The position numbers and the translations under genes were made by a program. A model generated the notes under the pieces. That model worked only from the letters and a program-made list of their open reading frames with translations, made no database searches and was not told where the DNA came from. Shown here in pieces: positions 35,630-49,287 of a DNA stretch of 64,000 nt. Origin of the DNA: Deltaproteobacteria bacterium GWC2_55_46 (GTDB lineage Bacteria > Desulfobacterota > GWC2-55-46). The stretch spans positions 897,501 to 961,500 of the forward strand of contig LVEI03000001.1 in NCBI GenBank assembly GCA_001595385.3, written 5' to 3'. The stretch's first letter is position 1. Every line of letters begins with the position of its first letter.

Positions 35630-35797
35630 GCCCACCAAAACAAAGTCCGCTCAATGAACACATCACACACATCACCGCCGCAAGCATCGGAGTATCTGAA
35701 TATCCTTCTATAACGCTTCTGCTCCCTCTCCACACCGGGGAGAGGATAAAAAACAGCGCGGCAAGCAACTGGTATTAAAACCCTGTGAGAAAATAAA

Positions 35798-35829
35798 AAA
35801 AGCCCCGCGCTCACAAGCGCGGGGCTTTT
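35798..35829. terminator. Bidirectional rho-independent terminator
   Basis: Arms AAAAGCCCCGCGC and GCGCGGGGCTTTT with loop TCACAA. It lies 16 bp after the TPR gene stop on the minus strand, with a T-tract (A-run 35791-35801 on the plus strand). Confidence 0.92.
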
Positions 35830-35845
35830 CAGAAGCTTTAGTCCG

Positions 35846-36277
35846 CTAACTGGCGATCTTCTCGACCAGGATGCCCAAGAACCTGTTGACTACGTTCTGT
35901 CTGGGGAGAAACGATATCATGGGCTTTCTGCGAAGACCCAGGCTCTTCATCTCGCTCAGCAGGGCGAAATGGTCGCTGTCGAACTTGAGCCCCTTCCTGA
36001 AGGCCCTCACGGCCACGGACTTCTGGCCGTTAAGCAAAAATATCCTGCCAAGGTTCAGGTATATCTCTGGGTTATAAAACTCCTTTTCAGCCGCCATGAG
36101 ACAGAGCGATATGGCCTTGTCAAAGTTACCTTCAACGCTTGCCAGGCTCACGGCATAATATGACGTTGCCGTGGGGTGCTGGGTAAAGCAGAGGTCCTGG
36201 TCAAAGACCTTTACCGCCTCGTCAAACCTCCCCGCCCGCGCAAGCCCGATACCTCTTTCGATCACTTCATTGCTCAT
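35846..36277 (-). CDS. TPR-repeat protein of unknown function
   Basis: A 143-residue soluble protein of three helix pairs like tetratricopeptide repeats: ERGIGLARAGRFDEAVKVFD, YAVSLASVEGNFDKAISLCL and YLNLGRIFLLNGQKSVAVRAF. The C-terminal stretch (KSLGLRRKPMISFLPRQNVVNRFLG) with two Arg/Lys patches and a short amphipathic end is not repeat. Partner unknown. AGGAGGCTATCT precedes the ATG. A Crp-like palindrome lies 120 bp upstream, matching that in front of the secreted protein gene, so the two may be co-regulated. Confidence 0.8.
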   Translation of the reverse strand: MSNEVIERGIGLARAGRFDEAVKVFDQDLCFTQHPTATSYYAVSLASVEGNFDKAISLCLMAAEKEFYNPEIYLNLGRIFLLNGQKSVAVRAFRKGLKFDSDHFALLSEMKSLGLRRKPMISFLPRQNVVNRFLGILVEKIAS

Positions 36278-36463: not shown

Positions 36464-39115
36464 TCACTGTAGCTTTAGCCCTGTCTCTACGAGCTTTTCC
36501 TCAGGGCCGTACTTTACAGCCAACTCTCCGGAAGAGCTTAAGCAGAAGGTCAGGCGCACTTCATCAGGCACATTTTCCCCGAAGGACAATGTCACCGGCT
36601 TGAGCCCTGTAAGGCCCGCCTCAGCGGCCTCCTTTATCTCCTGCTTGAGGAACTCGACCCCTTGCTCAGAGACCCACCTCCTTACGAGCGTGCTTTCAGG
36701 TATCTCGAAGAGCTCTATCGTGACCTCCTTCTGGAGCCCCAGCTTCCTGGCGGGCTTAACGCTGAAGCTCTTCTCCAGGGGCAGCTGCTCCCCCTTTTCA
36801 AGCACGATAGAGTACGAGTGGGTCACGTCCTTGCCATGCGGCGAGTACCTGAGCGCATAGGCAACCGCCAGGTGCCTGTCGGTTACCTCCCTTGTCCCGT
36901 AGGAGGCGGCGCCCATACAGACGGCCGTAAGCGGGCTGTGGTCGTATATCAGATTCCTTCCCCTCAGCTCCGGGAATATGTCGCCGATCTTCTCCTTAAA
37001 GGACGGTATCTGGGAAGAGCCGCCAGTCAAGAGCACGGCGTCTATCATCTCTTTCCTGAGCCCCACCTTCTCGGCCCTCTTGAGGATACCGACAACGGCC
37101 CTGTCTACGGAGCTATAAAATTCGCGCCCGTCAAGGACCTCCTCAAACTCGTCCCTCGTCATCCTGCACGCCTCCCGCCCGTTCCAGATGAACGGGGCAT
37201 CCCTTCTCTCGGAAAGCCTTATCTTCACCTCTTCGGCGGCGAGCATAAGATTGTACTGGGACGCGCCCTCTATCCCGGCCTTCTTGCCGAGGTACTCCGA
37301 GAGCCAGAGGTCTATGTCATGGCCGCCGAGCATAAGAGCCCTCTCGGGCTTCGCCACGATATGGACCTCGTTCATGTTGAGCCTCACGAGCATCGTATTG
37401 AAGGTGCTGCCCCCGAAGTCCACGACCATTATGAGCCTGTCCTTCTCATCGACCACCTGGTATCCGACAGCGGCGGCCAGCGGCTCTTCTATAAGCTCTA
37501 CCCTCGCACCCTTCATGACCTTCCCGGCTATCTCCCTTAGCGCAAAGCTGTAGTCCTGGTAGCCGACCGGCACGGTTATGTATATGACGTCGGCTGCGCT
37601 CCTGGGCAGGATGGAGAACCAGGGAGCGCCCGCGGAGGACTTCTTCAACTGCTGATAGAGGATCCTTATGAACCTCTCCATGTGCTCCCTGCCCCGCGGG
37701 TTACCTTCAAGGAGCATCTGCTTGATATTGGATATCGGGTCGCCGCCCGCGGCCTCCGCGCCTATGTTGTTGGTATCCGCGCTCAGAAGCGTCGGCACAA
37801 GTGAGATGTTGTCGTATTGTCTGGCCGCGGGGCCCAGGTTGATGAATTCCGGCGCCTCGTCCTTTTTCTTCCTCAACACAACGGTATTCGTGGCGCCCAA
37901 GTCTATCGAGACGCACTCGGATGACGCAAGGTCCCTCCTGCTGATGACGGCCCCGCCGGATTCAGGATGAAGTTCAGCTATGAATACAGGCCTTTCGACC
38001 TCCGCCCCGTGGAATGTGCTCTTCAATGTCTCCAGCCTGTCGACGACCTTCTTTACAGAATCGCGGAGCCCCCTGGGCTGGACCCAGACGTGGGTGTAGG
38101 GCTTGAGAGTCTCTAAAAAACGGGTGTCGTTCAGGGCGGCGCCGAACTTCTCGATCTCCTTGCCCAGTGTCTTCGCGTACTTCTCCCGCGCGAACCTGTT
38201 CTTCTTCGAATCGGTTATGCCGTTGTCCTCAGCGGAAAGTATGTAATCGACCACGTCGAATACATCCACGTCCTCCATCCATTTCCTGACTGTAAAAAAG
38301 GCGAGCGAGCGCTCTAAGGTCTTCTGTATAAGGGAAAAGAACTCACGCGCCCTTGGCGCTATCTGGAAGAGCTCTATCAGGCAGTACTCCCTGGCGAACG
38401 GATCTACCATCTCAAGGGTGGCGTCGAAGGCGTCCTCCATAGCCTTTAGCTCAAGGCCCCTCCACTGCCCTGTCTTCGGCAGCTCCCCCGCTATGGAGAT
38501 GAGCGAGTACCTCCTGTAATACGGCTCGGCTATCGCGTGGGCGGCCGTTATCGCGAGCTCTATCGCCTCTTTATAGACCGGCTGGAAAGGCCCGTCCCTG
38601 GGCGCTATCCTCGCTACCCCAAGGAGCGTAAAGCTCGCGAAAAACGATATATCGCTCGCCTTGGGAAGCTCACTGGCTATCTTTTCCATGTTGGGCCTGG
38701 CAAAACGCGGGCTATCGGGCAGGCCGAGCGCGAGCCTCCACGCTCTCACCCTGAGGTCCAGAAATTCTTTCGTCCCGGGCAGCTCGTTTGCGAGCCTTGC
38801 CAGCTCGGTGACCCTGCGGTTGGTCTCATCGAGGGCATCCGCGGCTGCAAGGGCGGCTTCCATAGCCCTGATGTAGAGGCGCTGGAACGGTATAGTAAAG
38901 GGGATCTCTTTTACGAACTCGAGGAGGGCAAGCCTCCTGTCGGAGGGGTCCTCGATCCTGTCGAGGAGGTCAAAGGCGATCGTGAAAAGCTCTACAGCCT
39001 CCGCGGTTTTGGGAAGCTCCCTGCCGGCGCGGACTATGAGGCTCCGTATGCTCGAATTGTCCTGGGTATCTCTGGCGGTATCGATGTACCGCCTCGGGGC
39101 TTCGAGGTTGCTCAT
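36464..39115 (-). CDS. Giant Hsp70-like protein with N-terminal helical repeats
   Basis: An 883-residue protein. Residues 1-~290 are a helical repeat array of about seven ~40-residue units, each with an ELPKT/EIPFT/ELPGT/IAPRD-type turn (for example AGRELPKTAEA, ANELPGTKEF, AGELPKTGQW). From ~400 an Hsp70 ATPase follows: phosphate-1 SIDLGATNTVVL, EEPLAAAVGYQ, phosphate-2 VVDFGGSTFNT, adenosine motif LLTGGSSQIPSFKEKI. A ~110-residue beta domain like DnaK SBD-beta ends the protein (VTIELFEI, DEVRLTFCLSSSGELAV); the helical lid is absent. Last gene of the AAA/DUF1257/DUF2997/radical-SAM operon, overlapping the latter by 4 bp. Confidence 0.88.
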   Translation of the reverse strand: MSNLEAPRRYIDTARDTQDNSSIRSLIVRAGRELPKTAEAVELFTIAFDLLDRIEDPSDRRLALLEFVKEIPFTIPFQRLYIRAMEAALAAADALDETNRRVTELARLANELPGTKEFLDLRVRAWRLALGLPDSPRFARPNMEKIASELPKASDISFFASFTLLGVARIAPRDGPFQPVYKEAIELAITAAHAIAEPYYRRYSLISIAGELPKTGQWRGLELKAMEDAFDATLEMVDPFAREYCLIELFQIAPRAREFFSLIQKTLERSLAFFTVRKWMEDVDVFDVVDYILSAEDNGITDSKKNRFAREKYAKTLGKEIEKFGAALNDTRFLETLKPYTHVWVQPRGLRDSVKKVVDRLETLKSTFHGAEVERPVFIAELHPESGGAVISRRDLASSECVSIDLGATNTVVLRKKKDEAPEFINLGPAARQYDNISLVPTLLSADTNNIGAEAAGGDPISNIKQMLLEGNPRGREHMERFIRILYQQLKKSSAGAPWFSILPRSAADVIYITVPVGYQDYSFALREIAGKVMKGARVELIEEPLAAAVGYQVVDEKDRLIMVVDFGGSTFNTMLVRLNMNEVHIVAKPERALMLGGHDIDLWLSEYLGKKAGIEGASQYNLMLAAEEVKIRLSERRDAPFIWNGREACRMTRDEFEEVLDGREFYSSVDRAVVGILKRAEKVGLRKEMIDAVLLTGGSSQIPSFKEKIGDIFPELRGRNLIYDHSPLTAVCMGAASYGTREVTDRHLAVAYALRYSPHGKDVTHSYSIVLEKGEQLPLEKSFSVKPARKLGLQKEVTIELFEIPESTLVRRWVSEQGVEFLKQEIKEAAEAGLTGLKPVTLSFGENVPDEVRLTFCLSSSGELAVKYGPEEKLVETGLKLQ

Positions 39116-39687
39116 CTTATTTCCGGCCTGGCGGTTATGCGGCTGAACCCGGTCTCCCTCACCATCCCGTCGGCCCCTATGAAGACCTCTGACCTGCCCG
39201 GCATATAGAGGTCATGAAGGCTGTACCTCGGCGTGAGAAAATGGAAGCTCTGGTTCGTGGAGCCGCGGGGCAAAAGCGTAGCCTCCTGCCTGGTCTCATC
39301 ATAAGGCCCGTCTACGAGTACATCTATCGACGCGAGGCAGGCTCTCATCGCGGGGTCCGCTTCTATCTCTTCGATCTTGAAGCCGGTATAGACGAGGGTC
39401 GTGAGTCCGCGCGCCCTGGCTGATTCGAGCAGAGCCTTCAACCCCCTTGGTTGCGAAAACGGCTCTCCGCCGCTCACGGTAAGGCCTTCGATATCTATCG
39501 CAACGTATCTTTCAAGGATGTCTTCGGCAGGGGTGAGAACGCCAGCGTCAAAGGGGTGCGTGGCAGGGTTAAAGCACCCCTCGCAGCGCCTCTGGCAGCC
39601 CTGGAAGAAGACAACGACCCTTTTTCCCGGCCCGTTGACGCTTGAGCGCGGCAGCACCGCGTGTATGTTTATGAGCCCGCCGTCCAT
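39112..39687 (-). CDS. Radical SAM activase-like protein (NrdG-like)
   Basis: A 191-residue short radical SAM protein. The cluster motif is CQRRCEGC (Cys 31, 35, 38), followed by the SAM-binding GGEPF in LTVSGGEPFSQP and VLVDGPYDE. The size and layout are those of glycyl-radical activases such as NrdG, or of the NrdG-like 4Fe-4S single-cluster family. No glycyl radical enzyme is encoded nearby. The start overlaps nothing, 15 bp after the DUF2997 gene; the stop overlaps the Hsp70-like start (ATGA). Context suggests it modifies, or supplies electrons to, another member of this operon. Confidence 0.88.
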   Translation of the reverse strand: MDGGLINIHAVLPRSSVNGPGKRVVVFFQGCQRRCEGCFNPATHPFDAGVLTPAEDILERYVAIDIEGLTVSGGEPFSQPRGLKALLESARARGLTTLVYTGFKIEEIEADPAMRACLASIDVLVDGPYDETRQEATLLPRGSTNQSFHFLTPRYSLHDLYMPGRSEVFIGADGMVRETGFSRITARPEIR

Positions 39688-39702
39688 AAAAACAGAGACC
39701 GG

Positions 39703-39888
39703 TCAATCCTTGGCGTCGAGCTTGACCCGGACATCGCCATCAAGGATCTCGTCCTTTTCCACAAAGCTCTCTATCTTTCCGAGGTGCTTTGTGAGCTGAC
39801 TGGCGACCTCCTTGCAGTCATTGTAGACGCTGGAGTCTATCTCGACGCGTCCGTCCGGCGTTATTTTTATCCTTATCTGCCTGTCCAT
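39703..39888 (-). CDS. DUF2997 small protein
   Basis: A 61-residue protein of the DUF2997 family: beta strand RQIRIKITPDGRVEIDSSVYN, helix DCKEVASQLTKHLGKI, then FVEKDEILDGDVRVKL. Family members are found beside DUF1257/Ycf35 genes, as here (4 bp gap). Function unknown; too small for an enzyme, so probably a binding or adaptor subunit. No Cys residues other than one in NDC. Confidence 0.82.
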   Translation of the reverse strand: MDRQIRIKITPDGRVEIDSSVYNDCKEVASQLTKHLGKIESFVEKDEILDGDVRVKLDAKD

Positions 39889-39892
39889 GCCC

Positions 39893-40231
39893 TTACCCTT
39901 TGAGGACTATCTGTATCTCGCCGGCCGTCTCGGTTTCGCTCGCTATCTCGAAATCCAGCGGCAGGTTGTCTTTTATCGATTCATAGGCGTATATCTGTTT
40001 GAGCCTGTTGGAGAAGGCGCCGACCACCCGGTTGTCCCCCGCCATCTGGTAGTTGCCTGTCTTCTCCTGCGACATGCTTATGATGTCCCCGTCCCTGTCG
40101 ACCTCGACCGTATCCTTCCGGACGTTTTCCACGAAGCCGGTTATCTCGCCGCGCTTCTTTAATTCCTCAAGGGCGCAGACAAGATATTTCTTGCTCGAAA
40201 GCTCTGTTTTTATGACGGTGTAGAAAGACAT
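39893..40231 (-). CDS. DUF1257 protein (Ycf35-like)
   Basis: A 112-residue protein with the family start MSFYTVIKTELSSKKYLVCALEELKK, close in pattern to plastid/cyanobacterial Ycf35 (MSHF-x-IKT...), then a beta-rich middle (VEVDRDGDIISMSQEKTGNYQ) and FSNRLKQIYAYESIKD. Function unknown. It lies 10 bp after the AAA protease and 4 bp before DUF2997, so the three are surely translated from one message. Confidence 0.85.
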   Translation of the reverse strand: MSFYTVIKTELSSKKYLVCALEELKKRGEITGFVENVRKDTVEVDRDGDIISMSQEKTGNYQMAGDNRVVGAFSNRLKQIYAYESIKDNLPLDFEIASETETAGEIQIVLKG

Positions 40232-40241
40232 CCTCTCTCCC

Positions 40242-42377
40242 TCACTGGACCGGGTTTTCCCTGAAGAAACGGTTGAGGCCTTCTCCGTTTATGAGCACTT
40301 CCCCTACGAGCTTCTCTACGAGGGCCATGACGACCTCTTTATTGTCAGAGACGACCTTGGCTGTGGCCTCCTTGGCCGAATCGAGTATCCTCTGGATGTC
40401 CTCCAATACGTCCCCGCCAGAGGTGAGGGCGTAGTCCTGGAGGACCATGAGGCTTTTGTTCCTCATTATCTCGCCGAAACCGTACTCGATGACCATCTTG
40501 CGGGCGATCCCGGTTGCCTGTATGAGGTCGTGAGAGGCCCCTACCGTCTTGGAGTCGTTCCCGATTATCTCGTCCTCCGCCACCATGCCGCCGAGTATGA
40601 CGCCTATCTCCTTTTCAAGGTCCCTCTTTGTGTAGGTGGTCCTTATGGCCTCGTCTACCGGGATGAAGGCGGCGTAAGACTTATAGTTGTCTACGCTTAC
40701 GAAGGCCGGGGTCTTGTTGAAGTAGAGCTTCATCATGACCGCGTGCCCGGCCTCGTGGATGGCTATGTTCCTCTTTTCCGTATCAGAGAGGGACTCGGCC
40801 CTCTGGAGGAAGAGCGACTTGGAGGCCGGCCTCGCCCTCTGGTGGCTCCATGCCCGGAGCTCCTCTATCTCCTCTTTCTTGAGTACCGAAAGGGGCGTTA
40901 TGTGCCTTATGGACTTAAGGAGGCTCTCCTGCGTTACGTCAAGCGAAAGGAGCCCCTCTATGACCTCTTCGATGTTCCTGCCGCCATGGTCCTCGTGGAG
41001 CTGGTTGAAGATGGTCACCACGGCGTCCTTTACCGCCTGCTCTATCTCGGCGCCTGTGAAGCCCTGGCTGTTGAGCGAAAGCTCCTTTACGTCGAGGCGC
41101 GAGAGGTTCTGGACCCTCCTTTCGAGGTGTATCCTGTATATCTCCTCGCGCTCCTCCTGGCTGGGGAGGTCGACGAAGAAGACCTCGTCGTAGCGCCCCT
41201 TCCTCCATAGCTCCGGCGGCAGGTTCTTGGGCTCGTTCGCGGTCGATATGACGAAGACCGGGTGCTCCTTCTCCTGAAGCCAGGTGATGAAGGTCCCGAA
41301 AACGCGGAGCTGGGTGCCCGAATCGCCCTGGTAGCCTCCGATGCCGCCGAAGGCCTTGTCTATTTCGTCTATCCAGAGTATACACGGGCTTACAGCCTCG
41401 GCAAGCTGTATGCACCTTCTTATGTTCTTCTCGGATTCTCCGACGGTGGAGCCGAACAGGCGCCCCACGTCGAGGCGCAGAAGCGGCAGGTTCCAGATGC
41501 CGGCAAGGGCCTTGCAGCAAAGGCTCTTTCCCGAACCTGGCACGCCTATCAAAAGGAGCCCTTTCGGGACATCGAGGCCGAGGGTGGATATCTTGTCGCG
41601 AGAGAGCCTGAAGACGTGCTCCCTCTCTACAAACCACTTCTTTATCTCGCTTAAGCCCCCGATATTCTCTATCGTCTCCCTGTGCGGGTAGTAATCCAGT
41701 ATCTTCTGTTTTTTGATGATCTGCTGCTTTTCGTCCTGTATATATGAGATGCAGTTCTCGTTAAGGAAGCCGTTATTGAGGCTTATCGCCTTCCTGATGA
41801 CGCGCCTTATATTATCCATGGAAAGGCCCTGGAGCGACTTGTAGAGGATAGACCTGGTGGAGGCGTGCCAGCTTGCCGGGATCAGATGTCCGTATGTCCT
41901 GGAGACCATGTCGGCAATCTCATCGTAGTCCGGAAGCGATAGCTCTAAAACTACTATGTCCTCTTCAAGTTCCGGGGGTATTTCGCTCAAGGTCGGAGAG
42001 ACGATGCAAACGGTATTGACGGTGTGGCGCTCGTCTATTATCGCCGGGAGGTCGCGGAAGCGCCTCAGGAACTCATGGGAATTGAAGTAGGAGGCTATGT
42101 CCTTCAAGAGAAAGAAATTGCTGACATTCTCGCCCTTGATTATCTTCTCCTCTATTACGGAGAGGATCTTCTCCCTGCCTATGGGCTCCCTTTTCTTCTT
42201 CTCGCCCCCGTACAGGCCCCTGGATACCGACCAGGACCAGAAACTGAGCTTCATGGAATCGCAAAGCGATTCCACAATCCTTTCCACCCTCCGCTCCTCA
42301 AAGGAGACGAGCCAGAGGATGGGGTACCTGGCCTCGATATGTATCCGTATCTCGTTCTCGAAGTCTCTGGCGTTCAT
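40242..42377 (-). CDS. Soluble AAA+ ATPase fused to an M41 (FtsH-type) zinc protease, Ycf46-like N-terminus
   Basis: A 711-residue protein without membrane segments. Residues 1-~235 match the Ycf46-type degenerate AAA domain (IHIEARYPILWLVSFEERRVERI). The active AAA module has Walker A GVPGSGKS (278-285), Walker B ILWIDEID (333-340), sensor-1 ISTANE and an Arg-finger region WRKGRYDE. From ~530 a peptidase M41 domain follows: HEAGH (541-545), LGGMVAEDEI and the third zinc ligand Asp617 in VGASHDLIQATGIARKM. All catalytic residues of FtsH are kept. First gene of the five-gene operon. AGGT lies before the ATG. Confidence 0.9.
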   Translation of the reverse strand: MNARDFENEIRIHIEARYPILWLVSFEERRVERIVESLCDSMKLSFWSWSVSRGLYGGEKKKREPIGREKILSVIEEKIIKGENVSNFFLLKDIASYFNSHEFLRRFRDLPAIIDERHTVNTVCIVSPTLSEIPPELEEDIVVLELSLPDYDEIADMVSRTYGHLIPASWHASTRSILYKSLQGLSMDNIRRVIRKAISLNNGFLNENCISYIQDEKQQIIKKQKILDYYPHRETIENIGGLSEIKKWFVEREHVFRLSRDKISTLGLDVPKGLLLIGVPGSGKSLCCKALAGIWNLPLLRLDVGRLFGSTVGESEKNIRRCIQLAEAVSPCILWIDEIDKAFGGIGGYQGDSGTQLRVFGTFITWLQEKEHPVFVISTANEPKNLPPELWRKGRYDEVFFVDLPSQEEREEIYRIHLERRVQNLSRLDVKELSLNSQGFTGAEIEQAVKDAVVTIFNQLHEDHGGRNIEEVIEGLLSLDVTQESLLKSIRHITPLSVLKKEEIEELRAWSHQRARPASKSLFLQRAESLSDTEKRNIAIHEAGHAVMMKLYFNKTPAFVSVDNYKSYAAFIPVDEAIRTTYTKRDLEKEIGVILGGMVAEDEIIGNDSKTVGASHDLIQATGIARKMVIEYGFGEIMRNKSLMVLQDYALTSGGDVLEDIQRILDSAKEATAKVVSDNKEVVMALVEKLVGEVLINGEGLNRFFRENPVQ

Positions 42378-42472: not shown

Positions 42473-42541
42473 AAAAGGGCACGTTTCTTGTTCCATTTTT
42501 GGGGGTGTCGACAATATAGCATATTTACGGGGTTTGGAAAT

Positions 42542-42606: not shown

Positions 42607-42774
42607 TCAGGCGGCGGGCCTGCCCCTGCCAGCGATGAGAGAGACGACGAAGAGTATGATGAAGACCACGAAAAGGAGCTTCGCGATCCACGCGGCGGTC
42701 CCCGCTATCCCGGCGAAACCCAGCACGGCCGCGATTATGGCTATTATGAGGAATGTTATCGCCCATGAAAGCAT
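42607..42774 (-). CDS. DUF1328 (YtjA-family) small membrane protein
   Basis: A 55-residue protein with two hydrophobic helices: [20 protein letters not shown], a [11 protein letters not shown] turn, then [17 protein letters not shown] and a GRGRPAA end. This is the typical length and pattern of the DUF1328/YtjA family, stress-associated inner-membrane peptides. The start ATG is at 42772-42774 behind GGAGGGATACTT. A consensus promoter lies ~85 bp upstream and a terminator follows, so it is monocistronic. Confidence 0.9.
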
Positions 42775-46087: not shown

Positions 46088-46762
46088 TCAAAGGAGGTGC
46101 CTGTTAGACCTCTCCCAGGCCGTAGCGAGCTGGAATAGCTTGAACTCCTTTTCTTTTCGCCTGAACTCTCTTGAATGGACGCTCATCCTCTCCCCTTTGC
46201 GCTCCATGCCGAGGTGGGCGTGAAGCATCTCATGGTAGACGATGAACTCGACAAAGAACCGGGGTACGGCAGGGGAATCGAGGATCGCGGAGACCCTGAC
46301 GGTCCGGGAGGCGAATGAGTACGAGCCGAGCGTTCTTCTGCGCACCCTGCCGGGCTGTCTCCTTGACCATGTGATAGAGGCGGCTATAGAGCCGCTGAAG
46401 TACTCGCGGTTGACAGCGCCGAATATCTCGGCGAGGTCATGGCACCTGCCGCTCGGCCGAAGCCGCTCATTCCTGGGCTTGCCCTGTAGCTCCAGGCGCT
46501 TATCCCTTATAAAGCGGTTCACGAGCGGGGTCTTTATACGGCTGCCGGCTATGAAGCGGCCTAACTCCCCGAGGACCTCTTTAGGCGCGGAAAGGAATAT
46601 CCTGTGGAGCCTTAAGGCTACCTCGCCCTGCCCTCCCTTCGCGGAGACCATCCTCGTTGAATTATCTGTGACTGTAATCGAGACAGCGCGCCCTGAGGCC
46701 CGCTCAATGAGTTCCCTTACGTGGCTTAAGTCTTGTGTGAACGGGATCGGAAGCTGTTCCAT
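46088..46762 (-). CDS. SprT-like zinc metalloprotease-fold protein
   Basis: A ~224-residue protein with a SprT-like zincin domain in the C-terminal half: LAEIFGAVNREYFSGSIAASITWSRR (substrate lead-in), LGSYSFASRTVRVSAILDSP and the metal motif VYHEMLHAHLGM (HExxH), with a further His in MSVHSREFRRKEKEF. The N-terminal ~100 residues (DLSHVRELIERASGRAVSITVTDN) are less clear. The start is uncertain: ATG 46762 is the best, the open frame runs further to 46915 but overlaps the promoter of the divergent xfp gene. Confidence 0.8.
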   Translation of the reverse strand: MEQLPIPFTQDLSHVRELIERASGRAVSITVTDNSTRMVSAKGGQGEVALRLHRIFLSAPKEVLGELGRFIAGSRIKTPLVNRFIRDKRLELQGKPRNERLRPSGRCHDLAEIFGAVNREYFSGSIAASITWSRRQPGRVRRRTLGSYSFASRTVRVSAILDSPAVPRFFVEFIVYHEMLHAHLGMERKGERMSVHSREFRRKEKEFKLFQLATAWERSNRHLL

Positions 46763-46893
46763 AAGTGGGCGTATTGTAAGGGCCGGCGCCCCTGTTTTCA
46801 AGAAGAAACAAAGAAGGACGGTCTTCTCCTGGCTGTTGCCCGCTTCGATCCTCAGAATGTGATAAAGTTTAATGTATAAATATGGAGGTGACG

Positions 46894-49287
46894 ATGAAGA
46901 GCCATGAAAAGGCAAAACGCGATTATGCGGCCGGCACGGCGGTAGACCGGTACTTCAGGGCCGTAAACTATCTCGCCGCCGCGCAGATATACCTTAAGGA
47001 CAACCCGCTCATGGAAGAGCCTTTGAAGGCCGGGCACGTTAAGGAGCGGCTCCTGGGCCATTGGGGCACCGCCCCCGGCATAAACCTCACCTACCTCCAC
47101 CTCAACAGGCTCATACTGAAGACCAACGCGAGCGTCCTTTTCGTGACCGGGCCCGGCCACGGCGCGGCGGCCAACCTCGCGAACATGTACCTTGAGGGCG
47201 CCCTCACCGAGATATATCCGGAGCTTACGCTCGACATGGAAGGCTTGAGAACGTTCCTCAAATGGTTTTCATGGCCTGACAGGTTCCCCAGCCACCTTAA
47301 CCCGGCACTCCCCGGGGTAATACACGAGGGTGGCGAGCTCGGCTATGCCCTTTCGACCTCATACGGAACGGTGCTCGACAACCCGGGGCTCATTACCGTC
47401 TGCCTTGTGGGCGACGGCGAGGCCGAGACCGGCCCCACCGCCGGGGGCTGGCACTCGAACAAGTTCCTGAACCCGGCTACCGACGGGGCTGTGCTTCCGA
47501 TACTGCACCTTAACGGCTTTAAGATATCCTCCCCCACCATATTCGGCACCATGACCGACGAGGAGCTTACAAGCCTTTTCAGAGGCTACGGCCACGGGGT
47601 TGAGATAGTCTCCGCCGGTACAGACGTGCATGACGAGTATGACGCGGCGCTCGACAGAGCCTACGACAAGATACGAGCGCTTCAGGGCGCATCGAGGGCC
47701 GGGAAGATGCCAGAGAGGCCCAAGTGGCCCATGATAATACTCAAGACCCCCAAGGGCTGGACGGGGCCCAAGAAGATGGACGGCAAGATTGTGGAAGGCT
47801 CCTTCAGGTCGCACCAGGTGCCTGGAAAGGACTTGATCAAGAACACGGCCCACATGAAGGCCATAGAGGAATGGCTCCGCTCATACAGGCCATGGGAGTT
47901 ATTCGACAGGGACGGAAGGCCAGCCCAGGATATCCTTTCGCAATGCCCGGCTGGCGAGCTAAGGATGTCCATGAACCCATACAGCATAGGCGGCAGGAAA
48001 AGGGTCCCGTTAAAGCTACCGCCGCTCGATGAGCGCTGGGTAGAGGTGAAGGGCCGGGGCGCAAAGGAGGCGAGCGCGATGGAGGCGCTCGGCCAGTACT
48101 TTAAAGACCTCATGATAAGGAACCGCGAGGAACGGAACTTCCGTATCGTCTGCCCGGATGAGCTTGAATCGAACAGGCTAGAGGCCGTCCTCGACGTCAC
48201 CAACAGGCAGTACGTATGGCCGGTGCCGCCAGGGTCCGAGAAGATCGGCCCTGAAGGCATGGTCCTTGAGGTCCTAAACGAGCACAACTGCCTTGGATGG
48301 CTCGAAGGCTATCTCCTTACCGGCAGGCACGGGGTCTTCCCGTGCTACGAGGCATTCCTGCAGATAGTGGACGGCATGGCCAACCAATACTCGAAGTTCC
48401 TGAAATCCGCCCTCGAGGTGCCATGGAGGCTCCCTATATCGTCCCTCAACTTCATCCTCACCTCGGAGGCCTGGAGGCAGGAGCACAACGGCTACTCCCA
48501 CCAGGGGCCTGGCTTCATAAATAACCTCCTTACGAAAAAGGGCTATATCTACCGCATATACCTGCCGCCTGACGCGAACACGCTCCTTTGCACCATCAGC
48601 AACGCCCTTGCCTCGACCGACCAGATAAACCTGATCATCGCGAGCAAACAGCCGATGGCGCAGTGGCTTACCATGGAGGAAGCCATCGAAGACTGCCAGG
48701 CGGGCATAGGCATCTGGAGCTGGGCGTCGACCAACGGCGGCGAGGACCCGGAGCTTGTGCTCGCCGGGTGCGGCAACAACCTGACGCTTGAGGTGATGGC
48801 AGCGGCGCGGATATTGAGAGAGGAGGCCCCGGACTGGAGGATACGCGTCGTGAACGTCATAGACATACTCGTGCTCGGCATACCGCAGAAGTACCCGGGC
48901 GGGCTCGATGAGGCGCGGTTCCAGAGGATATTCCCTCTCGACTGCCCGGTCCTCTTTAACTTCCACGGATACACCTCAGCCATAAAACAGCTCGTCTGGG
49001 AGAGGCCCGGCAACAGCCGCTTCGACATAAACGGCTACAGGGAGGAGGGCACGACCACCACCCCCTTTGACATGCTGGTGCGTAACCGCGTCAGCAGGTA
49101 CCACCTGGTCATGAAGGCCGCCGAGGAGATAGCCGCCGGAGACCCCGGCAAGGCGGCCCTGGCGGAGAAGCTCGTGATCAAGTACTCAAGAAAGCTCATC
49201 GACCACAGAAATTACATAGACCAGTTCGGGATCGACCCGCCTGAGATACTCAACTGGAGATGGCAGCCTGACGGGGGCAGGAGATGA
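46894..49287 (+). CDS. xfp: Xylulose-5-phosphate / fructose-6-phosphate phosphoketolase
   Basis: A 797-residue TPP enzyme that cleaves xylulose-5-P (or fructose-6-P) with phosphate to acetyl-phosphate and glyceraldehyde-3-P (or erythrose-4-P). Signatures: GHWGTAPGINLTYLHLN, VTGPGHG, the thiamine-binding VGDGEAETGPTAGGWHSN...LHLNG, SHQVPGKD and DELESNRL. ATG 46894 is preceded by GGAGGTGACG; the ATG at 46882 is part of that site. It is complete and starts the row xfp-treZ-GH57-treY, which suggests a carbon-overflow or bypass route feeding from stored glucan. Confidence 0.95.
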   Translation: MKSHEKAKRDYAAGTAVDRYFRAVNYLAAAQIYLKDNPLMEEPLKAGHVKERLLGHWGTAPGINLTYLHLNRLILKTNASVLFVTGPGHGAAANLANMYLEGALTEIYPELTLDMEGLRTFLKWFSWPDRFPSHLNPALPGVIHEGGELGYALSTSYGTVLDNPGLITVCLVGDGEAETGPTAGGWHSNKFLNPATDGAVLPILHLNGFKISSPTIFGTMTDEELTSLFRGYGHGVEIVSAGTDVHDEYDAALDRAYDKIRALQGASRAGKMPERPKWPMIILKTPKGWTGPKKMDGKIVEGSFRSHQVPGKDLIKNTAHMKAIEEWLRSYRPWELFDRDGRPAQDILSQCPAGELRMSMNPYSIGGRKRVPLKLPPLDERWVEVKGRGAKEASAMEALGQYFKDLMIRNREERNFRIVCPDELESNRLEAVLDVTNRQYVWPVPPGSEKIGPEGMVLEVLNEHNCLGWLEGYLLTGRHGVFPCYEAFLQIVDGMANQYSKFLKSALEVPWRLPISSLNFILTSEAWRQEHNGYSHQGPGFINNLLTKKGYIYRIYLPPDANTLLCTISNALASTDQINLIIASKQPMAQWLTMEEAIEDCQAGIGIWSWASTNGGEDPELVLAGCGNNLTLEVMAAARILREEAPDWRIRVVNVIDILVLGIPQKYPGGLDEARFQRIFPLDCPVLFNFHGYTSAIKQLVWERPGNSRFDINGYREEGTTTTPFDMLVRNRVSRYHLVMKAAEEIAAGDPGKAALAEKLVIKYSRKLIDHRNYIDQFGIDPPEILNWRWQPDGGRR

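Follow-up and report, generated by a model that had tools for sequence, protein, structure and literature searches.

A conserved gene cassette couples a soluble AAA-M41 protease with Ycf35-like, DUF2997-like, radical SAM, and solenoid-Hsp70 proteins in a deltaproteobacterial class

Our results revealed a chromosomal cassette in Deltaproteobacteria bacterium GWC2_55_46 and its class, in which a soluble AAA-M41 protease is encoded with two small proteins of the DUF1257/Ycf35 and DUF2997 types, a radical SAM protein, and a fusion of an alpha-solenoid to an Hsp70 nucleotide-binding domain. That these genes form one conserved unit is well supported, and we infer its substrate and chemistry. With moderate confidence, we read the cassette as a housekeeping chaperone-protease unit, in which the AAA-M41 protein would work with DUF1257 and DUF2997, with the solenoid-Hsp70 and a tetratricopeptide repeat (TPR) protein, and with a radical SAM step. 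The sequence examined, here called the window, is the whole 64,000-nt stretch of contig LVEI03000001.1 from this genome, and all of the coordinates given are window positions (Table 1).

A sequence-only reading of the window had described five minus-strand genes with gaps of 10, 4, and 15 bp and one 4-bp overlap, which lies between the radical SAM and Hsp70 open reading frames (ORFs), and the ORFs reproduced these coordinates exactly. The transcription unit probably comprises six genes, given that the TPR gene stands 3' of the Hsp70 gene in 11 of the 18 loci and that a terminator-like hairpin follows right after it. Upstream of the cassette lies a gene for a small DUF1328 membrane protein (42607-42774, minus strand), which has a perfect 12/12 sigma-70-like promoter at 42885-42858; read-through from there into the operon could occur. 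Elsewhere in the window (46091-46915, minus strand), a SprT-like metalloprotease-family protein is encoded near H+-pyrophosphatase and phosphoketolase genes.

Table 1. Features of the cassette and its immediate surroundings, in window coordinates
Feature	Position	Strand	Basis or remark
Soluble AAA-AAA-M41 protease, 711 aa	40242..42377	minus	ORF; Pfam AAA + Peptidase_M41
Coding part of degenerate N-terminal AAA domain (predicted fold)	41658..42377	minus	AlphaFold model + fold comparison
DUF1257/Ycf35-like protein, 112 aa	39893..40231	minus	ORF; sub-cut-off Pfam, intermediate profiles
DUF2997-like protein, 61 aa	39703..39888	minus	ORF; sub-cut-off Pfam, intermediate profiles
AAA-associated radical SAM protein, 191 aa	39112..39687	minus	ORF; Pfam Fer4_12 + Radical_SAM; not NrdG
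Alpha-solenoid + Hsp70 nucleotide-binding domain fusion, 883 aa	36464..39115	minus	ORF; Pfam HSP70
TPR protein, 143 aa, probable sixth member	35846..36277	minus	3' of Hsp70 gene in 11/18 loci
Terminator-like hairpin, 15 pairs, T-rich tail	35797..35830	minus	directly 3' of TPR gene; strong
Weak promoter-like site, 9/12, not above chance	42513..42540	minus	upstream of AAA-M41 gene

The five genes keep the same order and strand in all 18 intact loci of relatives, which span several families, and co-location of their homologues in other lineages was looked for and found in the class, in the phylum, and in cyanobacteria; hence, the proposal in the sequence-only reading that they make up one system is supported. 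Specifically, the AAA-M41 gene is present in 46 of the 63 genomes of the class (69-94% identity), and its tree is largely vertical: genera and family f11 hold together, and families f57, f7, and f53 probably acquired the gene by transfer. The radical SAM gene closely tracks it across the 63 genomes, both being present in 42 and neither in 15, with the AAA gene alone in 4 and the radical SAM gene alone in 2 (Fisher p 4e-9), and contig ends, partial hits, and one incomplete genome are found among these exceptions. Further, the radical SAM gene and the cassette are single-copy in the class, and the flanking genes of the cassette are conserved in several relatives. This inheritance profile, with presence in so many genomes, a mostly vertical tree, and conserved flanks, argues for a housekeeping unit rather than a fast-moving defense island. 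A defense island or mobile cassette within the class was considered and set aside, as the flanks and the tree argue against it, though a few transfers are likely.

The AAA-M41 protein consists of a degenerate AAA domain without a P-loop (residues 1-240), an active AAA domain (~245-520), and an M41 zinc peptidase (~525-705), and it is soluble and without the FtsH membrane anchor, with the fold of the first domain being predicted from a model. Both Pfam AAA (103 bits) and Peptidase_M41 (82 bits) scored above cut-off, and no transmembrane segment was found, the top 19-residue hydropathy of 1.27 falling at the P-loop, in agreement with the soluble AAA/M41 protease first read from the sequence. All 40 distinct members retain the Walker A/P-loop, the HEAGH zinc site, the third zinc ligand motif, and the arginine finger. 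For the N-terminal 240 residues, AlphaFold predicts an AAA fold (pLDDT 87.6), which compares with Vps4 at Z 15.6 over 214 residues and finds only AAA+ proteins at the tops of both fold lists, and the Walker A motif is absent from this domain. The active AAA and M41 domains carry the same catalytic motifs as those in the membrane protease FtsH, whereas the cassette protein has the degenerate AAA domain in place of the N-terminal membrane segments and scores 173 bits on the FtsH model, for which the cut-off is 600. Its N-terminal two thirds are Ycf46-like, with ~40-43% identity to the best cyanobacterial Ycf46-type proteins, and outside the class the degenerate-AAA/AAA half without M41 is the commoner form.

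The window's DUF1257-like and DUF2997-like proteins score 13.7 and 18.6 bits on their Pfam models, below the respective cut-offs of 22.2 and 24.1, and it is gene position and profiles through intermediate relatives that secured their identities, with the Pfam DUF2997 family being too weak as a search probe. Profiles built from cassette members match the DUF1257 and DUF2997 genes that adjoin related AAA genes in other parts of the phylum, and the joined profiles match cyanobacterial genes next to ferredoxin 7 (E 6e-31 for DUF1257 and E 1e-8 for DUF2997), which are those of the described DUF2997-ycf35-fed7 cluster (PMC4284462). These intermediate profiles, together with the AAA-DUF1257-DUF2997 neighborhoods in the phylum and in cyanobacteria, substantiate the connection to Ycf35 and Ycf46 that had been suspected earlier. 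The DUF1257-like protein has the predicted fold b-a-bbbb-a-bb (pLDDT 88.6), an adaptor-like helix-grip arrangement, and its model matches KA1 domains, BamC, and TBP-like folds with Z up to 8.5. We rejected these matches as functional evidence, because they show no more than a common arrangement; the adaptor role that we propose for this protein is thus suggested by genetics and not by its fold. Sequence searches found no solved-structure homologue of DUF1257 or DUF2997. The DUF2997-like protein has a single cysteine, C25, which is invariant in 13 aligned relatives.

The 883-aa protein matches Pfam HSP70 (PF00012) at 72.1 bits, above cut-off, and the phosphate and adenosine motifs of Hsp70 are present in 17-19 of 19 members. 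Its residues ~1-390 form an alpha-solenoid with seven ELPKT-type motifs, mostly ~40 aa apart, and nothing in Pfam or the PDB matches this N-terminal half. The nucleotide-binding domain is followed, where an Hsp70 would have its lidded peptide-binding domain, by a short C-terminal region of ~145 residues that matches no family.

Beyond the class, a sample of 198 genomes from the phylum showed that every genome with a strong DUF1257 match (19/19) also carries a Ycf46-type AAA gene, which adjoins DUF1257 in every phylum locus inspected. Eight phylum loci without M41 also carry an Hsp70-like gene, and those read in detail proved to encode HEAT-repeat proteins as well; in such loci, the separate HEAT-repeat and Hsp70 genes are the counterpart of the one fused protein in the cassette. 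The M41-less module, Hsp70 - Ycf46-type AAA - DUF1257 - DUF2997, thus occurs in other phylum members and in cyanobacteria, where Hsp70 and HEAT lie near the AAA-DUF1257-DUF2997 genes in some loci. In Sphaerospermopsis kisseleviana (L179), for example, a HEAT+GUN4 protein, a Ycf46-type AAA, DUF1257, DUF2997, and Hsp70 are found together, the GUN4 domain being tetrapyrrole-binding, and in the cyanobacterial locus L182, Hsp70 lies near DUF2997-Ycf35-ferredoxin 7. The Ycf46/Ycf35/DUF2997/Fed7 set of cyanobacteria and red-lineage plastids has the same two-domain AAA architecture as the cassette and adjacent DUF1257 and DUF2997 genes, and the cassette has the Ycf46-type AAA (degenerate AAA plus AAA) next to a DUF1257 protein by which that set is recognized. 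The set differs in that it is without M41, has ferredoxin 7 next to DUF1257 where the cassette has the radical SAM gene, and often has its genes scattered. Cyanobacteria and many red-lineage plastid genomes keep Ycf46 and Ycf35, and we know of no role assigned to either. Among red algal plastids, the losses of ycf35 and ycf46 follow similar habitat-linked patterns (PMC5940233); in other work, ycf35 and fed7 were both SigD-dependent (PMC8875361) and Ycf35 rose under copper/iron depletion (PMC8141849).

The core three genes of this module, AAA-DUF1257-DUF2997, are also found in phages. By profile search, we identified AAA - DUF1257-like - DUF2997-like in a Rhizobium phage (L158) and a Pseudomonas phage (L161), and AAA - DUF2997-like in a Rhodobacter phage (L159); plain tblastn of the phage collection gave no match for DUF1257, which was found by profile only, and no DUF1257 or DUF2997 was detected at a Mycobacteriophage AAA locus. 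In the three phages (L158, L159, and L161), the DUF2997-like genes (and the DUF1257-like genes of L158 and L161) are unannotated and follow an annotated AAA ATPase, the Rhizobium phage pair being phrog_20456 and phrog_23133, and the loci are without radical SAM, Hsp70, or protease. In a 206-kb contig from Paenibacillus sp. TCA20 (L078, also L223), which is listed as viral in IMG/VR and which we read as a large phage, nearly the same module also has a radical SAM gene, in the order radical SAM - x - Ycf46-type AAA - x - DUF1257 - DUF2997. In Candidatus Eisenbacteria (L045/L184), the radical SAM gene adjoins two Ycf46-type AAA genes, one of which is fused to a serine/threonine protein kinase. 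Finally, in other phylum members (L185-L188), AAA-DUF1257-DUF2997 triplets stand beside short unannotated genes, with toxin-antitoxin-like genes alongside in some, as on mobile elements.

A mechanism can be proposed for the cassette on the basis of these components. FtsH and other AAA+ unfoldases work as rings, and the AAA-AAA-M41 protein would likewise assemble into a ring, here a soluble one, in which the second AAA domain would unfold proteins and thread them into the M41 zinc-peptidase chamber, where they would be cut. The degenerate first AAA domain may stand in for the FtsH membrane anchor and act as a docking platform; DUF1257 and DUF2997, as constant small adaptor or regulatory subunits, would most likely dock on this layer. 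The solenoid-Hsp70 and the TPR protein would supply or hold clients in an ATP-dependent manner. The radical SAM protein could modify DUF2997, DUF1257, or the client, thereby gating the process, with DUF2997 and its invariant cysteine being the nearest small candidate. By analogy with the cyanobacterial DUF2997-ycf35-fed7 cluster, the setting is likely protein quality control tied to Fe-S/redox stress: fed7, beside ycf35/duf2997, is required for oxidative, metal, and iron-starvation tolerance, and its product binds a DnaJ-like protein (PMC4284462). Because most of the related modules are without M41, proteolysis may be an add-on, with remodeling as the core job. Likewise, a modification step is not essential to the core, because the radical SAM protein and the ferredoxin are missing from some versions, such as the AAA-DUF1257-DUF2997 of phages.

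Alternatively, the cassette could serve as an activase for a metalloenzyme or Fe-S protein, in which the AAA protein, Hsp70, and Ycf35/DUF2997 would open the client, the radical SAM protein (in cyanobacteria, ferredoxin 7) would introduce or restore a modification or a cluster, and M41 would clear failures only. Such a role would fit the many module versions that have no protease, the 4Fe-4S ferredoxin that adjoins DUF2997 and Ycf35 in cyanobacteria (seen in our loci and in PMC4284462), and the iron-starvation phenotypes and DnaJ-like partner of Fed7. However, the class invariably has M41 in fusion with the ATPase, its active site being intact in all 40 members, and no gene for a cofactor enzyme consistently neighbors the cassette; we consider this alternative tenable but rather unlikely.

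A second alternative arises from the FtsH ternary systems (MoxR-vWA subsystem 3; Kaur et al. 2020 eLife), which combine MoxR and vWA with an FtsH-type protein whose N-terminal AAA domain is inactive, which in a subset include a radical SAM protein thought to modify a peptide effector, and which have been proposed as biological-conflict systems (PMC7159879). Myxococcus loci that we reached via the radical SAM protein (L041-L055) are systems of this kind and contain Pfam fvmX5, fvmX6, and fvmX7 and a soluble AAA-M41 protein. The cassette shares with these systems a P-loop-less N-terminal AAA domain followed by an active AAA domain and M41 (the M41 being that of the Myxococcus loci read here), the radical SAM clade (100/99), extra small proteins, and solubility, but it has the solenoid-Hsp70, DUF1257, and DUF2997 instead of MoxR, vWA, and fvmX5/6/7, and it is vertically inherited in a whole class. 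Pfam scans found no MoxR or vWA in the cassette or the main flanking genes (~28-51 kb), no fvmX match in the cassette, and no effector domain in the cassette or the flanking genes scanned; DUF1257 and fvmX5 have a similar apparent layout, but hhalign found no detectable similarity, and we do not claim homology between them. By analogy, then, the cassette would work like an FtsH ternary system while lacking the MoxR, vWA, and fvmX components that define membership, and the solenoid-Hsp70 together with Ycf35/DUF2997 may take the place of the MoxR-vWA pair.

Under a conflict reading, whether anti-phage or self/non-self, the cassette would be a variant of these systems whose protease is unleashed on invaders once a signal passes a threshold. 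The architecture and radical SAM clade common to the myxobacterial systems, and the carriage of the AAA-DUF1257-DUF2997 core by phages, speak for it, but the single-copy, mostly vertical inheritance with conserved flanks in 46/63 class genomes, the lack of MoxR, vWA, fvmX, or effector domains among the genes scanned, and a sequence conservation like that of core genes speak against it. Further, the PADLOC matches were generic only, to AAA, radical SAM, and Hsp70. The cassette AAA also matches the IetA models of IetAS, an AAA + subtilisin anti-phage system, at 104 bits, and both pair an ATPase with a protease, but the cassette M41 is fused, there is no subtilisin partner, and the match is to the generic AAA domain only. 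We therefore regard a conflict role as doubtful and retain the housekeeping chaperone-protease unit as our preferred reading.

The radical SAM protein matches Pfam Fer4_12 (111.7 bits) and Radical_SAM (36.6 bits), both above cut-off, and has a CxxxCxxC motif and a long C-terminal tail. In a tree of its relatives, rooted by midpoint only, the cassette and myxobacterial FtsH ternary proteins form one clade (100/99) with single Eisenbacteria and cyanobacterial proteins, and the other clade consists of NrdG-type proteins, four of which are encoded directly beside a glycyl-radical enzyme. The cassette-type clade is without the NrdG CPH motif at the cluster, and its tail carries an HFLT.RY...TGF pattern. 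Thus, the cassette protein resembles NrdG in its Fer4_12/radical SAM fold, CxxxCxxC, and SxNQ motif, but differs from it in tail length (41-67 residues in the cassette type vs 22-38 in true NrdGs), in its separate clade, and in having no NrdD partner. Given the separate clade, the absent CPH motif, and the longer tail, it belongs to an AAA-associated family with a target other than that of NrdG. It is highly improbable that it is an ordinary NrdG/PFL-type activase that merely happens to sit in the operon: it does score 108.9 bits on the NrdG model TIGR02491, alongside the Fer4_12 match, but it misses the cut-off of 126.1, has the clade and tail just described, and is strictly linked to the AAA gene, and the Pfam models find neither NrdD nor a Gly_radical domain in this 100% complete genome. 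Hence, we rejected an NrdG/glycyl-radical activase for this genome, barring a glycyl-radical enzyme that escapes both Pfam models, and the label "NrdG-like" given to this gene before describes a resemblance of sequence only. In the class, an over-cut-off NrdD was found in 2/63 genomes and a Gly_radical domain in 4/63. Last, a chance neighborhood of genes with unrelated functions, which might be suspected from pairs that lie 100-300 bp apart in some relatives, is refuted by the conserved order and strand across several families and by the recurrence of the set as separate genes in distant lineages and cyanobacteria.

The sequence-only reading had also held the combination to be undescribed, which stands for the exact five-part set, not found in the open-access literature, but not for its kind, given that related FtsH ternary systems with a radical SAM protein have been described (PMC7159879). 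Specifically, we found no description of DUF1257 and DUF2997 with radical SAM and Hsp70 proteins in the open-access literature, with subscription journals mostly outside the scope of the search. More speculatively, and in our view improbably, the radical SAM protein might place a covalent radical mark either on the invariant cysteine of DUF2997 or directly on clients chosen by Hsp70/Ycf35, and this mark would destine proteins for the AAA-M41 chamber or permit them to be remodeled, with plastid Ycf46/Ycf35 as a protease-free descendant or cousin; if true, this would be a radical-chemistry-gated protein quality-control pathway. The AAA-M41 protein would exemplify an M41 protease that is soluble, has two AAA domains, and serves a housekeeping role, and its partner would represent a radical SAM family that is annotated like NrdG but has another function. 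Through its gene order, the cassette links Ycf46 and Ycf35 with protease, Hsp70, and radical SAM proteins, and it connects this whole group with the FtsH ternary systems. A role of the plastid-encoded Ycf46 and Ycf35 in client remodeling or degradation, with Fe-S/radical chemistry, thereby becomes directly testable.
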